Under the pieces are notes generated by a model that searched no databases, was not told the DNA's origin, and saw only the letters and a program-made list of their open reading frames with translations. A stretch of DNA of 21,856 bases from a virus, in IMG/VR virus record IMGVR_UViG_3300047666_000929, positions 1-21,856 of that record; one strand, 5' to 3'. The position numbers were made by a program, and so were the translations under genes. Of this stretch, positions 1,999 to 21,604 are shown one piece after another; the stretch's first letter is position 1; each line of letters begins with the position of its first letter.

Positions 1999-3588
1999 AT
2001 GATGAAACAAAAATTAGTCAACTCAATAATAGAAAGATTGGAAACAGAAGTATCGCCAAGGAATCCTGTGAAGTTCTTAAAAGATCTAGACGCAAGCGTG
2101 ATCACAGACCAGGCAATTGGTTACATATACCTTTACACAAGAGTAGGTAGAGGTAGCCGAAAGAAGTCAGTGCTGATGGCTGAAATCATATCAGCAATAG
2201 GCCACGGTGTACGTGACAAAGCAGGTCTCAAGAAGAATAGCGCATTGGCTGCAAAAGCTGGCGCATTTATCTTGTACACGTTTGAGGTACTTGGGTATCT
2301 CCACACATTGAAGGGACGAGCTGGAAATGGTCACAGCACATATCTCATAGAAGTGGATGATGAAGAAGGCTTGTCTTTATTATGGAGCAAGCTGGAGGCT
2401 GATAAAACAGAGAAGCTCCCATCATTAACGCCACACGTACCATGGTTGTCAACTAAACATAGTACAGGCGCAAGGCTTGTGAAGACACAAGATAAGGGTG
2501 TACTGCAAGAACTGTCTATTGAAAACTGCCCGCTGGTGTATGAGTCAGTGAACAGGTCTCAACAAGTTGGCTGGCGTGTTAATGAAGAGATATATGAGAT
2601 ATACACGTGGGCGTTACGAAACAAAACAGACGCTTTCTCAGATATATGGGAGATTCAAAATCCTCAAGCAAAGGCCAGCAAGACGCGTGAAGCAAAAGCT
2701 GTTGGCGACATAGCGAAGAGGTTCCTTGGAAAGACCTTTTATCATCTATATTATCTTGACTTTAGAGGACGTAAGTACCCAGCTACGGCATACTTTCATG
2801 AACAAGGGACCGATCTGAGTAAAGGCTTGCTGCTCAGAGAAGATAAAGCTCCAATAGGCGAACAGGGCTATTACTGGTTACTGATAAGTATCGCATCCAA
2901 TTGGGCAGGTGACGCTGGTCGTGAAGATGGTCTCAAAACTGATAAGATACCTTTGAACGACCGTGTGTATTGGGCGCTAGATAATGAAGAGATTCTGTTA
3001 TCATATGTTGAGAATCCAAAGGTCAATCAAGGGTGGATGAAAGCTGACAAACCTTGGCAATTCTTAGCGGCTTGCAACGAATGGTTGAACCTGATAAGAT
3101 GGCAGGAAGCGCATACGGGACATAAGGTGTTAGGATATGACGGAGAGGTTACCATATCTGATCCTGATTATGAAGATTATAGCTATGAAAGCCACCTTGA
3201 GTGTTATATCGATGGTTCCAATAATGGGTCTCAGCATTTGTCAGCATTGACCAGAGATGATGTAACAGCACCGCATGTCAATCTAGTTCCTTCAGACCTT
3301 CCTGGAGATCTATACAAATATGTGGCGGATCATGTATGGGAGACTATCGACAAGGAGAAAGATGAGCTGACTCGTAGGGAGTTTAAAGCATGTGAAAGCG
3401 TCATCGATACCCTTGCTGATGAGAAGACTCAGATAAACTTAGCGCCTCTCAAGTCAGAAAGAAGGAAAGAGCTTATTGAAGACTTGATTAAGTTTAAGAG
3501 AGCTGAGGCAGAGACTATCGGTAAAGCCGCCTGCGTATTCTGGAGCAATGTGAAAGATGCAAAGCACCGAAGAAAGGTCGTGAAGCGT
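1999..3588 (+). CDS. Phage RNA polymerase, exon 1 (residues 1-530)
   Basis: First exon of a T7-type single-subunit DNA-directed RNA polymerase, which would transcribe phage genes independently of the host enzyme. The palm signature YYLDFRGRKYP (T7 has NMDWRGRVY) and catalytic motif A with Asp405 in YIDGSNNGSQH are plain. The exon ends on KR, the start of motif B (Lys529, Arg530, matching T7 Lys631 and Arg632). Translation would stop at a TAA three bases into intron 1, giving a truncated inactive product without splicing. The joined protein is 762 residues against 883 in T7; the N-terminal promoter-binding domain is the shortened part. AGGA precedes the ATG at 1999; an ATG directly after it is an alternative. 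Confidence 0.95.
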
Positions 3589-3883
3589 TAATAACATGGC
3601 GCTTTTAAAACAATGTGAATTCGGGGAACATCTAGAACAGACAATCCCGAGCCAAGCTTAGCTAAGGCTTTGAAGGTGTAGAGACTATCCTGAGAAGGAG
3701 TACACTCAAGTGAGTGGAAGCGCATTGGGTCAGAAATGATCATGATATAGTCCGATCTACATGGGGACATGTAGTAATTTAAGGAAGCTTATGAGGCTTA
3801 TTGTGCTAAAGCGATTGAGCATTATGGCGAGTTTGCTAAATTAGATTGATATATATTTAACGAATATATATTTAACATAAATG
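3589..3883 (+). ncRNA. Group I intron 1 in RNA polymerase
   Basis: A 295-nt self-splicing-type intron. P1: exon AAGCGU pairs with internal guide GCGCUU (near 3600-3606), with the required U-G at the splice site. P10: UAACAU just before the guide pairs with AUGUUA at the start of exon 2. P7 is GACTAT (3683-3688) with ATAGTC (3747-3752). P8 is CACTC/GAGTG (3703-3716). P9 is CTACATG/CATGTAG with a GGGA tetraloop (3757-3774). A late hairpin at 3848-3872 has loop TTAACGAA. The intron ends on G at 3883. Removal joins KR to NVMTLPYG, which aligns gap-free with T7 KRSVMTLAYG. It is clearly related to intron 2. Confidence 0.9.
3781..3849 (+). pseudogene. Remnant of intron HNH/AP2 endonuclease C-terminus
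   Basis: Twenty-two codons plus a stop inside intron 1 read KEAYEAYC...HYGEFAKLD. This resembles the usual end of AP2-domain HNH homing endonucleases found in phage introns. An in-frame stop lies just upstream (3775-3777), and there is no start codon or nuclease domain. The rest of the gene appears to have been deleted, leaving the fragment between P9 and the final hairpin of the intron. Confidence 0.65.
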
Positions 3884-3928
3884 AATGTTATGACGCTCCC
3901 GTATGGCGGAACAGCGTATGGTTTGGGT
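3884..3928 (+). CDS. Phage RNA polymerase, mini-exon 2 (residues 531-545)
   Basis: A 45-nt exon of exactly 15 codons encoding NVMTLPYGGTAYGLG. This is the bulk of RNA polymerase motif B (O-helix), including Tyr537, equivalent to T7 Tyr639, which selects ribonucleotides. It is bounded by two group I introns. The phase is 0 on both sides, and each upstream exon ends with T as group I splicing requires. Confidence 0.9.
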
Positions 3929-4644
3929 TAATTCGGCTCAATTAAAACACCTTTAATTGCTGGGACATCCCTCTGGGACAATCAGCAGCCAAGCTTAGCC
4001 TTAGGGCTTTGAAGGTTCAACGACTATTCCGAAAGGAAGTACACTCAAGTGAGTGGAAACGGGGTGCACCGAAAGGTGAAGATATAGTCTAGTCTGCATG
4101 GTAACATGCAGCAGATCGTGGTCTCCAACGTTAGGAGAAGAATGTGAACAAAGAAGAAATACTAAGATTATACGAATATAGGGATGGGGAACTTTATTGG
4201 AGAGTAGCTAGATCCAATAGGGTTAAAGTAGGGCAACTCGCTGGTGATGTTGATGGGAGAGGTTACAGACGTGTGTACTCAAACGGCAGGCACTGGAAGG
4301 TACACCGACTTATTTGGATTATGCATAACAGATTCTTAGATGACAATGAGATCATAGATCGCATAGATCGAGATAGGACAAATAATAGGATAGAAAACCT
4401 TCGCTTGTCAAATAAATCAGCTAATGCCATAAACTCAGATTTTACGGAAAGAGCAAAAGGATACCACTATGATTCCAATCGTGGAAAGTGGCGCGCTCAA
4501 ATATCTATAAATAACAAGTCTGTTACATTAGGCAGATTCGATACAAAAGAAGAAGCTCAAGCTGCTTATGCTGAAGCTTGCAAGACCAGAAAACAATAAA
4601 GACCACGATCGGGGCGTGCTTAACGAACACGCTTGAATACAACG
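3929..4644 (+). ncRNA. Group I intron 2 in RNA polymerase, with endonuclease gene
   Basis: A 716-nt intron. P1: exon UUGGGU pairs with GCUCAA near 3936-3941, with U-G at the splice site. P7 is GACTAT (4022-4027) with ATAGTC (4084-4089). The P8 sequence GTACACTCAAGTGAGTGGAA is identical to intron 1. P9 is CTGCATG/CATGCAG with a GTAA loop (4094-4111). An 11-bp helix (4114-4124 with 4600-4610) encloses the endonuclease gene. A final hairpin at 4614-4632 has the TTAACGAA loop seen in intron 1. The 3' end at G4644 gives GLG-QQQIDDA, gap-free against T7 GFRQQVLED, and places 12 nt after the hairpin as in intron 1. G4635 is an alternative that would insert Asn-Thr-Thr. Confidence 0.9.
4144..4599 (+). 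CDS. Intron-encoded HNH/AP2 homing endonuclease, probably inactive
   Basis: A 151-residue protein of the HNH_3 plus AP2 type that normally nicks intronless alleles to spread its intron. The HNH region lies at about 58-92 (VHRLIWIMHNRF, then NNRIENLRL). An AP2-like DNA-binding domain follows at about 105-145 (KGYHYDSNRGKWRAQI, LGRFDTKEEAQAAY). The usual Asp-His-Ile-Asp core reads Asp-Arg-Ile-Asp: residue 73 is Arg (CGC at 4360-4362), where the general-base His (CAC or CAT) is expected, so nuclease activity is doubtful. The C-terminus also stops before the common HGEFA tail. Translation starts at GTG 4144 after AGGAGAAG; the overlapping ATG at 4142 stops at once. Confidence 0.9.
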   Translation: MNKEEILRLYEYRDGELYWRVARSNRVKVGQLAGDVDGRGYRRVYSNGRHWKVHRLIWIMHNRFLDDNEIIDRIDRDRTNNRIENLRLSNKSANAINSDFTERAKGYHYDSNRGKWRAQISINNKSVTLGRFDTKEEAQAAYAEACKTRKQ

Positions 4645-6575: not shown

Positions 6576-6617
6576 ACAAAACTTATAATAGAAAACAGTG
6601 ACGATTTACAAAAACCA

Positions 6618-6655
6618 AACCGTTAGATTAACCCTGCGAAGGGTTCTTTACCCTT
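6618..6655 (+). promoter_or_regulatory. Repeated leader element with alternative hairpins, copy A
   Basis: The stretch 6618-6636 (AACCGTTAGATTAACCCTG) matches 20484-20503 at 18 of about 20 positions. AACCCT (6630-6635) pairs with AGGGTT (6640-6645) across a GCGA tetraloop. AAGGGT (6639-6644) can instead pair with ACCCTT (6650-6655), so two stems compete for the same bases. It lies just before the SSB gene. It could be a phage RNA polymerase promoter, a processing site or a switchable hairpin. Confidence 0.5.
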
Positions 6656-6672
6656 AACAAATAGGATTTTAA

Positions 6673-10548: not shown

Positions 10549-10740
10549 ATGTTAATATTAACTAGAAAATTAGGCGAATCGATTATAGTAGGTGGAGATG
10601 TTAAAGTTACAGTGCTCAGTCGGGTTGGTAATCGGGTAAGCATAGGCGTGGAGGCGCCTGACGACGTCTCAGTACATCGAGAAGAGATACAAGAAAGATT
10701 GGATAAAGGAGAAACTTTTGAAAGAAAAGACATCATCTGA
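10549..10740 (+). CDS. csrA: CsrA/RsmA-family RNA-binding translational regulator
   Basis: A 63-residue CsrA homologue, the usual size. It begins [12 protein letters not shown] and continues to [19 protein letters not shown], matching bacterial CsrA along its whole length without gaps. The RNA-contacting residues Leu4, Arg6 and Arg44 are present at the canonical positions. CsrA dimers bind GGA motifs in mRNA leaders and usually block ribosomes. Here the gene sits between DNA polymerase and a small Cys protein, with AAGGAG upstream. The next gene starts inside its end. Roles could be reprogramming host carbon or stress mRNAs or regulating phage messages; the sequence does not decide. Confidence 0.95.
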
Positions 10741-20368: not shown

Positions 20369-20381
20369 CCCCGTTTGGGGC
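20368..20381 (+). promoter_or_regulatory. Stop-codon hairpin
   Basis: GCCCC (20368-20372) pairs with GGGGC (20377-20381) around GTTT. The stem begins on the last base of the upstream stop codon. No T-run follows, so it is more likely a stabiliser or weak pause site than a terminator. Confidence 0.5.
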
Positions 20382-20384
20382 ACA

Positions 20385-20412
20385 GTTGGCAGACAGGATG
20401 TTTTTCGCCAGC
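20385..20412 (+). promoter_or_regulatory. Candidate CsrA-binding hairpin
   Basis: GTTGGC (20385-20390) pairs with GCCAGC (20407-20412), including one G-U. The 16-nt loop displays AGGATGT (20395-20401), matching the 3' half of the known CsrA selection consensus (RUACARGGAUGU). A GGA exposed in a hairpin loop is the typical CsrA target, and this phage encodes CsrA. The 5' half of the consensus is not matched. Confidence 0.35.
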
Positions 20413-20441
20413 GAAGTGAGCTTCACCACGGCTCTCTCAAA

Positions 20442-20479
20442 ACGCCTCAGGGTTTCGCTCTCTCAGCGTGCCTAGGCGT
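20442..20479 (+). promoter_or_regulatory. Bulged long hairpin in leader
   Basis: ACGCCT (20442-20447) pairs with AGGCGT (20474-20479). After a one-base bulge AGG pairs with CCT, and an inner CGCT/AGCG stem closes a CTCTC loop. That is 13 bp in all, consistent with a stable RNA element. Confidence 0.55.
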
Positions 20480-20483
20480 GTTT

Positions 20484-20509
20484 AACCCGTTAAATTAACC
20501 CTGAAAGGG
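20484..20509 (+). promoter_or_regulatory. Repeated leader element, copy B
   Basis: AACCCGTTAAATTAACCCTG (20484-20503) repeats the element found before the SSB gene with only two differences. CCCT and AGGG (20499-20509) form a short hairpin in place of copy A's longer one. The shared sequence lies upstream of both structured-leader genes. A phage RNA polymerase promoter is one reading; ATTAACCCT also occurs in the T3 promoter, but the spacing to GGG differs by three bases. Confidence 0.5.
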
Positions 20510-20551
20510 AAGTCGAATTAGCGGTATCACATCTCAGTTAGATTGGGAAAT

Positions 20552-20579
20552 TGCCATAGGCAAATAATGGCCTATGGTA
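20552..20579 (+). promoter_or_regulatory. Strong hairpin upstream of repeat-protein gene
   Basis: Ten base pairs with one G-U (20552-20561 with 20570-20579) enclose AAATAATG. The left arm also lies in a TTGCC-ATA-GGCAA palindrome, so a small local stem could compete with the long one. It is 48 nt before the chosen start codon, suiting an RNase III site or translational control. Confidence 0.55.
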
Positions 20580-20627
20580 TTACATTAAAAAGATTCAATA
20601 ATGAATCACAACATACAGGAATATAAC

Positions 20628-21242
20628 ATGTCTGAATTAAAAAAAGGTTTCGTAGTAGAAGGTCAATTTTTCGCAACTAAAGCAGACGCAGAAGAATTTT
20701 TGCGTACACCGGTTGTCTTAGAAGCTTTGACAGTACTAACTTCTGACGAAGCAAGTTCGAAGTGGTTGTTAGAAAATCGCGATGCAATTCTTAGCACGTA
20801 TAAAGCAGGTCAAATCAGACGTGTATCAAAAGCTGAGCGTAAAGCATTGGTTAAAGCGTTAGATGAAGTTACCGAAGGTTTCTTAGCAGATAACCGTGAT
20901 AGCATTATCACATCATTCCGCTGGCCTAAAGTAACCCGTGACACGGACTCAGCTGAAGCCCTTAAAACAGCTTTTGTTGAGCTATGCGAAGGTAACGAAG
21001 AACTAGCTGATTGGTTGCTTGCTACTAAAGCTGAATTGGAAGAAGCTTTCAATGCAGGCAAGCCTAAGCGTAAAGTTTCTCAGAAAGCTTTAGATGCTCT
21101 TGCCGAGTTCCGTAACTTGTCTAAAGAAGAGCAAGAAGCTCGTCGTGCAGAAAACCGTGCCAAGAAAGCAGCCGCTACAAAATCAGTTGAAGAAGCTACA
21201 GAAGCTCCAGAAGCTGAAGAAGCAAAGGCTGACAAAAGCTAA
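20628..21242 (+). CDS. Acidic-tailed triple-repeat protein, probably highly expressed
   Basis: A 204-residue unknown protein. Three degenerate repeats of about 38-44 residues can be aligned: WLLENRDAILSTYKAG (from 46), FLADNRDSIITSF (from 85) and WLLATKAELEEAFNAGK (from 129). Basic linkers (QIRRVSK, KPKRKVSQK) and helices separate them. An Ala/Glu/Lys tail from about 163 is likely disordered. Arg codons are nearly all CGT or CGC with one AGA, unlike the AGA/AGG-rich genes elsewhere, a mark of high expression. I choose ATG 20628 with ACAGGA upstream over ATG 20601, which lacks one. It is flanked by structured noncoding DNA on both sides. It could bind nucleic acid or be an abundant accessory or structural protein. 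Confidence 0.75.
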   Translation: MSELKKGFVVEGQFFATKADAEEFLRTPVVLEALTVLTSDEASSKWLLENRDAILSTYKAGQIRRVSKAERKALVKALDEVTEGFLADNRDSIITSFRWPKVTRDTDSAEALKTAFVELCEGNEELADWLLATKAELEEAFNAGKPKRKVSQKALDALAEFRNLSKEEQEARRAENRAKKAAATKSVEEATEAPEAEEAKADKS

Positions 21243-21293
21243 TTAATTAGCTAAATGAGCATAACCGACAAGGTCGGTCTAGCTTAAAGTACT

Positions 21294-21378
21294 ATAAAAC
21301 CACTCGATGTCTATTTGAAGATCACTGCCTACTGTCTAGCCGTAGGGTGTCCCTTTGATTTGACTAGAGTGGTTTTAT
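21294..21378 (+). ncRNA. Structured element closed by a perfect 12-bp stem
   Basis: ATAAAACCACTC (21294-21305) is fully complementary to GAGTGGTTTTAT (21367-21378). Inside the 61-nt interval, CAC..CCTAC (21323-21332) pairs with GTAGGGTG (21342-21349) with a 2-nt bulge. A short T-run follows the closing stem, so it may also end transcripts. Confidence 0.6.
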
Positions 21379-21395
21379 TTTTGAACATTATAGGT

Positions 21396-21454
21396 TAGCA
21401 GACCTTTTCTGCTAGGGTGGGCTTACTCTCCACCCGCGTTACACTTTGGTGTAA
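21396..21454 (+). ncRNA. Three near-contiguous perfect hairpins
   Basis: TAGCAGA/TCTGCTA (21396-21414, loop CCTTT) abuts GGGTGG/CCACCC (21415-21435). After a 3-nt spacer comes TTACAC/GTGTAA (21439-21454, loop TTTG). The first two could stack end to end. The layout recalls tRNA arms, but no acceptor stem or T-loop sequence is present. Confidence 0.6.
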
Positions 21455-21469
21455 TTAGACTGAATATTA

Positions 21470-21535
21470 ATACCACCAATGCCTTTCTCCTTTATAGGCA
21501 GAAATCTCATCAGAGACGCTGTACTTGGGTGGTAT
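21470..21535 (+). ncRNA. Three-way-junction element
   Basis: ATACCACC (21470-21477) pairs perfectly with GGTGGTAT (21528-21535). Within it lie TGCCT/AGGCA (21480-21500) and TCTC/GAGA (21505-21516). The closing stem shares bases 21533-21535 with a competing TATGAT/ATCATA hairpin, so it may switch. Confidence 0.55.
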
Positions 21536-21561
21536 GATTTCTTCAGTTATCATAATGGTAG

Positions 21562-21584
21562 CCCCTCTTAATTGAGGGGTTTTT
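21562..21584 (+). terminator. Intrinsic terminator
   Basis: CCCCTC (21562-21567) pairs with GAGGGG (21574-21579) around TTAATT and is followed by TTTTT. It ends transcription of the repeat-protein gene and the structured region, 20 nt before the next gene. Confidence 0.85.
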
Positions 21585-21604
21585 AATTGAAAGAGGAGAC
21601 TATA

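Follow-up and report, generated by a model that had tools for sequence, protein, structure and literature searches.

Structured RNA downstream of a phage gene and recurring RNA modules at the same position in related phages

Introduction

GOLLD and ROOL are large phage-associated non-coding RNAs. The alpha-r14 sRNAs of alpha-proteobacteria carry anti-Shine-Dalgarno (anti-SD) loops conserved on freely varying stems, and one of them, NfeR1, was shown to repress at the start of translation (excerpt of PMC10746234). The Caulobacter sRNAs SisA-D (alphaR8) also have an anti-SD stretch (excerpt of PMC12559287). In the c4 antisense RNA of phages P1 and P7, complementary stretches, likely situated in loops, bind the target where ribosomes do and thereby stop its translation (excerpt of PMC12197685). 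Coremin, or xrRNA-C, of plant RNA viruses has the hp1 stem GUC/GAC and a spacer ending in UUAAAC, as in GUCCGAAGACGUUAAACUAC (excerpt of PMC10520033).

We analysed the entire IMG/VR record IMGVR_UViG_3300047666_000929, a phage fragment of 21.9 kb (21,856 nt, hereafter the window) with genes for a phage RNA polymerase, DNA polymerase, primase-helicase, ribonucleotide reductase and ligase and a CsrA-like gene. A structured RNA lies near its end. Related phages carry RNAs at the corresponding position, a slot that opens after the stop codon of a related gene and closes at a terminator.

Compared with the excerpted descriptions of alpha-r14 and SisA-D, the slot class likewise includes RNAs with an anti-SD segment, on stems that vary freely as in alpha-r14. 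Those RNAs, however, are cellular sRNAs with CCUCCUCCC or UUUCCUCCCU, while here the motif is UCUCCUU in a phage 3' UTR; the window RNA has one anti-SD copy on a large scaffold, and its relatives have pseudoknots. As is described for c4 in the excerpt cited, a folded phage RNA is proposed to block translation by pairing at a ribosome binding site. On the other hand, c4 has one target (ant), whereas the window motif is complementary to Shine-Dalgarno sequences (SDs) generally; moreover, the window RNA follows its gene and has no Rfam match. The likeness to coremin, as far as its excerpted description goes, concerns module A of the relatives (defined below), which has a short GUC/GAC hp1 and a UUAAAC-ending spacer, is sited in 3' UTRs and is sometimes tandem. 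Unlike in coremin, the loop of the phage module pairs with the sequence after UAAAC (an H-type pseudoknot), and the window RNA has no module A. With GOLLD and ROOL the window RNA shares being a large structured phage RNA, with tRNAs nearby in some relatives; it differs in having no match when 4227 Rfam families are searched at their gathering scores.

Among open-access papers, judged by titles and the beginnings of abstracts, no description of these slot RNAs was found. The term 'anti-Shine' does not occur in the excerpt of a 2025 review of phage sRNAs (PMC12197685).

Materials and Methods

The gene upstream of the RNA belongs to a family that we call ORF213. The window protein alone as a query yielded no IMG/VR homologue; relatives of the family in IMG/VR were reached via alignments. 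Labels such as L010, L029 or L142 denote loci on related phage contigs. In the first set a stop codon was present at 100 loci and absent from 3 others; the 100 gave 60 with distinct downstream sequence, 36 of them with an insert. A later set of 11 loci, made up of L236 and of those loci of a 47-locus search that lay on new contigs, comprised 6 with an insert, 3 with a short slot, 1 without a stop codon and 1 contig end. The 42 slots analysed are thus the 36 of the first set, which are non-independent sequences, and the 6 later ones. Slot ends were placed by hand or by eye in 14 of the 36 first-set regions and in all 6 later ones, because the terminator script gave either none or an early doubtful hairpin.

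Module frequencies in the 42 slots were set against dinucleotide shuffles. The statistics of the modules and of the anti-SD motif are post hoc, the motifs having been spotted by eye in the slot sequences before counting. The protein tree had 58 rows, with L125 and L194 left out.

Results

A phage-type promoter, a gene for a 204-aa protein, the RNA and a terminator form a single unit, in which the RNA takes the 3' portion. The features are as follows.

20487-20502, + strand: phage-type promoter CCGTTAAATTAACCCT, upstream of the gene-RNA unit
20628-21242, + strand: 204-aa protein whose phage family has no name (ORF213 if counted from the earlier ATG at 20601)
21243-21559, + strand: structured non-coding RNA (3' UTR)
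21250-21290, + strand: domain 1, nested hairpin of 3+5+6 bp (MFE; z -2.9 for 21243-21290)
21294-21378, + strand: domain 2, 12-bp closing stem AUAAAACCACUC/GAGUGGUUUUAU, then a U-tract (MFE; z -5.4 for 21290-21382)
21386-21557, + strand: domain 3, multi-branched junction closed by CAUUAU/AUAAUG (MFE; z -5.1 for 21385-21560)
21393-21414, + strand: GGUUAGCAGACC + CUGC, a weak match to the module C pseudoknot (chance 0.059 in the window RNA)
21480-21500, + strand: module D, UGCCU-UUCUCCUUUAU-AGGCA, with UCUCCUU at 21486-21492 (chance 0.070 in the window RNA)
21560-21586, + strand: intrinsic terminator, 8-bp hairpin and U-tract
21592-21604, + strand: Shine-Dalgarno sequence AGAGGAGA of the next gene (start 21605); duplex with the anti-SD loop -10.8 kcal/mol

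We confirmed that the structured RNA at 21243-21604 is real. The minimum free energy (MFE) of this stretch was -118.8 kcal/mol compared to -88.5 +/- 5.9 kcal/mol in dinucleotide shuffles (n = 100). In this comparison, which the first-pass annotation had named as a check, z was -5.14 (-5.1) and 0 of 100 shuffles folded as low. Among 200-nt segments of both strands (n = 218), the + strand segments at 21401 and 21201 ranked first (z -4.75) and third (z -3.65), respectively. The helices named in the first-pass annotation are present in the MFE fold, namely a 12-bp helix (21294-21305/21367-21378), a hairpin trio (21396-21402/21408-21414, 21415-21421/21429-21435 and 21438-21444/21449-21455) and an 8-bp helix (21470-21477/21528-21535) closing a three-way junction; the trio is 7-7-7 bp, though, and not 7-6-6 bp. 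Domain 3 contains the three 7-bp hairpins and a 7+8-bp arm.

The RNA had been put at about 360 nt, up to 21604. The dense fold stands, but the RNA proper stops near 21559, where the terminator follows, and 21587-21604 is the leader and SD of the next gene, outside the RNA proper. Its placement between the upstream gene and a terminator agrees with the stop codon on the 5' side and the terminator at 21560-21586 on the 3' side. There is indeed no coding content of note, as + strand ORFs reach just 27 and 30 aa. The limit of 30 nt that had been given for intergenic DNA was wrong: the gaps between ORFs at 20369-20600, 1045-1170 and 6576-6672 are longer.

That the RNA belongs to no known class holds for Rfam 15, whose only matches in the whole window were two group I introns away from the RNA. 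At E <= 10 nothing came near the cut-off, and a 13-bit match to Hammerhead_HH9 was a chance one. ARAGORN called 0 genes, against a tRNA or tmRNA reading. No DNA homologues of the window RNA were found in phage sequences, nor did a hairpin-pattern search find any in IMG/VR. Strict and relaxed scans of the window RNA gave no match to coremin/xrRNA-C, and membership in alpha-r14 (three hairpins, each with CCUCCUCCC unpaired) was rejected with one UCUCCUU only.

Of the functions first proposed, a sponge of CsrB type for a phage CsrA was rejected as unlikely because there is no GGA in 321 nt, and a packaging RNA finds no support among the findings here. A stable phage non-coding RNA or a 3' UTR regulator fits the position between stop codon and terminator and the phage-type promoter; it fits the relatives too, in which the same slot carries non-homologous RNAs with shared modules. 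A CsrA-like gene is situated at 10549-10740 in the window. Among 24 related records a CsrA gene was found in 2, those of L029 and L030, too few for a tie to the RNA.

The promoter motif occurs in the window with 0 mismatches at 20488-20502 and in a second copy, with 1 mismatch, at 6621. The 16-mer is present in at least 119 IMG/VR stretches, and a TTAACCC-type promoter was located upstream of 23/23 ORF213-family genes examined, and likewise of the window gene. In related phages (L037, L045, L046 and others) promoter copies are often paired, about 110-115 bp apart. The leader between promoter and gene (20487-20600) also folds well (z -3.4), and a hairpin CCATAGGC/GGCCTATGG sits in the leader just ahead of the start codon of the gene.

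For the upstream protein, AlphaFold2 predicts a helical fold made of two similar halves or repeats (mean pLDDT 86). Neither PDB nor BFVD gave a match to this fold at E <= 0.001, and no function and no nucleic-acid-binding family or fold was recognised; the family has conserved basic blocks, GTIRRVTK and FRWPxVKRM. Among 50,697 phage records only gp9 of EBPR siphovirus 1 was related, while alignment-based searches showed that many IMG/VR contigs carry relatives of the family.

In 36 of the 60 distinct relatives, an insert of about 60-670 nt separates the stop codon from the terminator. In the other 24, a terminator or the next gene comes close behind the stop codon; EBPR siphovirus 1 is counted here, as is a contig end of 31 nt. 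The slot of L010 contains a tRNA-Thr with a hairpin behind it, and in 14 loci with or near insert slots the Rfam matches were tRNAs only. Slots of L029, L030 and L179 have an RNA of about 330-670 nt with common blocks (GGCUAGCGGUACGGCC, GUAGCGAAUCGGG, ACGUAAGUAAAUAUAC in two of them), which resembles a separate large RNA class.

Four modules, A to D, recur in the slots, and the view of the slot RNAs as a modular class is well supported. The set is uncatalogued, and the modules have no Rfam match. At least one module was present in 29/42 slots, and at least two in 11/42 compared to 0.11 in shuffles.

Module A, the H-type pseudoknot GAC-CU-GAGCA-U-GUC-NNUAAAC-UGCUC, was observed in 11/42 slots compared to 0.02 in shuffles. 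Both of its stems show compensatory change, with 89% of cells paired compared to 24-36% in slid versions; since the copies were selected by the required pairing, these pair counts describe rather than test. Covariation was seen only for this module of the relatives, which is absent from the window (a relaxed scan gave 0 matches compared to 0.65 in its shuffles). The test proper was a search of 1.63 Mb, in which loci of one contig can overlap; it produced 21 distinct matches compared to 3 after a single shuffling of these sequences. L142 (= L224:2190-2840) has several such pseudoknots in tandem. Coremin-like H-type pseudoknots were also noticed in the DNA phages of L218, L165, L079, L133 and L217, and module A copies lie a few nt past stop codons of other phage genes at L101, L113, L128, L132 and L141.

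Module B, CCAYU-hairpin-RUGUCA, was found in 10/42 slots compared to 0.09 in shuffles. It is an internal-loop motif with a variable outer stem, at most 17 nt after the stop codon, in slots that include L078 (L078:8626), L231, L235, L276, L142 and L133. Scans found none in the window RNA, where AACCACU at 21298 base-pairs within the 12-bp stem and lacks the hairpin and UGUCA. Module C, a GGYUA-S2-RCC pseudoknot with S2 pairing downstream, occurred in 11/42 slots compared to 1.1 in shuffles. The window match to it is weak because its second stem has 4 bp and is rivalled by a nested 7-bp hairpin.

Module D is the anti-SD motif YCUCCUU, which was present in 13/42 slots compared to 1.6 in shuffles. 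Where modules co-occur, their order is regular: B precedes A, C and D in 3/3 cases each, D comes after A in 4/4 and after C in 5/5, and A and C take either order. For example, the slot of L078 reads B-A-C-D and then a terminator. The window has the C-like element (21393) and then D (21486), an order seen in L029, L030, L078 and L142; both in this order had a frequency of 0.003 in shuffled windows. The scaffold of the window RNA was found nowhere else.

In the first set, YCUCCUU appeared in 13/36 slot RNAs compared to 1.5 in shuffles (max 6, n = 300), and its reverse complement AAGGAG in 1/36. The top 7-mer by number of slots (11/42) was TCUCCUU, the complement of the SD AAGGAGA. The motif ends 16-32 nt ahead of the terminator in 11 of the 13 slot RNAs having it. 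It lies inside hairpins beyond the flank-shuffle expectation (Fisher p 4e-10, 15 instances) and is unpaired at a level of 0.66 compared to a background of 0.41 (p 0.002), while the sequences of the stems differ among L029, L030, L199, L218, L078 and L010. Anti-SD motifs within 60 nt of a terminator were counted in 8/23 slot cases and 0/44 elsewhere, with 23 slot terminators rather than 36 because only mismatch-free stems were read. Mapped onto the protein tree, the 13 rows with the anti-SD label require 7 changes, 2 of which are forced by well-supported branches.

Several observations count against anti-SD action. The motif is missing from 23/36 slot RNAs of the first set, and the strict form failed to replicate in the six later slots (0/6; CUCCUC was in 2/6). 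The window UCUCCUU is mostly paired in the MFE fold (mean unpaired 0.29); two folds are near-equal, -115.0 kcal/mol with the UGCCU/AGGCA hairpin open and -115.4 kcal/mol for the MFE. The anti-SD stem of the window taken alone is non-significant (p 0.094), the motif by itself has a 7% chance of occurring, and it lies 71 nt from the terminator, outside the 16-32 nt norm. The window RNA shares with the slot class the position between stop codon and terminator, the TTAACCC-type promoter and at least one of modules A-D, but lacks an open-loop anti-SD hairpin 16-32 nt ahead of the terminator.

In computed duplexes, the best partners of the window loop UUUCUCCUUUAU are start regions with GGAGA. Among 32 phage start regions hand-picked from the ORF list, two of them doubtful TTG starts, 13 were bound at <= -8 kcal/mol, compared to 7.6% of 1500 random places. 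The SD AGAGGAGA of the next gene is a good predicted partner. Many phage genes have a matching SD, so self-repression needs explaining. The genes directly behind the promoter copies (6673 and 20628) are weak targets, at -4.0 and -4.5 kcal/mol; the weak pairing would spare these genes, and two genes give a hint only.

Discussion

Our tentative reading is that the window element is a 3' UTR RNA of a modular phage class that represses translation through SD pairing; we regard it as possible, with the balance still somewhat against it. It starts from the observed fold, position, promoter and terminator motifs, and the slot with its four modules recurring in relatives. From there we infer expression, stability and trans action of the window RNA. 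The phage's own RNA polymerase would transcribe the unit, and the folded domains may shield the 3' part of the transcript, which would persist as a separate RNA. UCUCCUU, a copy of the 16S rRNA 3' tail, could then pair with SDs (GGAGA) and block 30S binding on host mRNAs, phage mRNAs or both. Support for an anti-SD mechanism is moderate where the class is concerned and weak for the window RNA; these grades take into account the mostly paired motif, its distance of 71 nt from the terminator and the 0/6 count of the strict motif in later slots.

The slot RNAs could instead act in cis, as 3' UTRs whose folds protect the ORF213-family mRNA from exonucleases and insulate termination, the modules being interchangeable armour with no trans action. 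Wholly different scaffolds, a tRNA-Thr in the slot of L010 and 24/60 distinct relatives lacking insert-sized RNA are all compatible with such a role, as is the resemblance of module A to coremin, an Xrn1-blocking motif; a flaviviral xrRNA blocks bacterial RNase J1 as well. Yet cis protection leaves unexplained why UCUCCUU is the commonest 7-mer and why anti-SD motifs are near 0/44 other terminators, and module A is missing from the window, so that we consider it rather unlikely.

That an entire group of DNA phages makes a counterpart of flaviviral subgenomic RNA, in which exchangeable pseudoknot and junction modules of the 3' UTR halt exonucleases and let a terminal anti-SD RNA accumulate and reprogram translation during infection, with the unique multi-branched scaffold of the window RNA replacing pseudoknots, appears improbable.

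We find it quite improbable that the RNA is an anti-defence decoy that titrates a host protein, its tandem pseudoknots and loops mimicking host-defence RNAs such as type III antitoxins or guide RNAs. Type III antitoxins do form pseudoknots, L142 has several in tandem, and rapid turnover with module mixing between relatives would suit a decoy; still, no CRISPR or antitoxin RNA family matched at gathering score, the window lacks the pseudoknot, and an anti-SD heptamer is unexpected in a decoy. Least credible is a ribonucleoprotein of the RNA with the protein encoded just upstream, e.g. for replication, transcription or packaging: the RNA accompanies this one gene in all relatives in which it was sought and the protein has conserved basic blocks, but the gene is kept without insert-sized RNA in 24/60 distinct slots and no nucleic-acid-binding family or fold was recognised.

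If SD pairing by a modular 3' UTR RNA is correct, a widespread uncultured phage group has a mix-and-match RNA whose place in the genome is fixed, and anti-SD RNA gains a DNA-phage example. The relatives would supply a coremin-like pseudoknot of the RNA-virus type (excerpt of PMC10520033), and exonuclease-blocking RNA in bacteria would become directly testable. The promoter-gene-RNA-terminator slot would be a simple handle for further finds.

The window has other features of interest. The RNA polymerase gene is interrupted twice, by group I introns at 3579-4111 and 4144-4599, about 75 nt apart, and a small ORF behind both introns resembles, as judged by eye, an HNH endonuclease. Elsewhere the + strand also folds well, with z of -4.3 (1001-1200), -3.4 (1401) and -3.1 (1601). 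The stretches concerned are 1045-1170 and 1400-1800, and they include a terminator-like hairpin with a long T-tract near 1757-1810.
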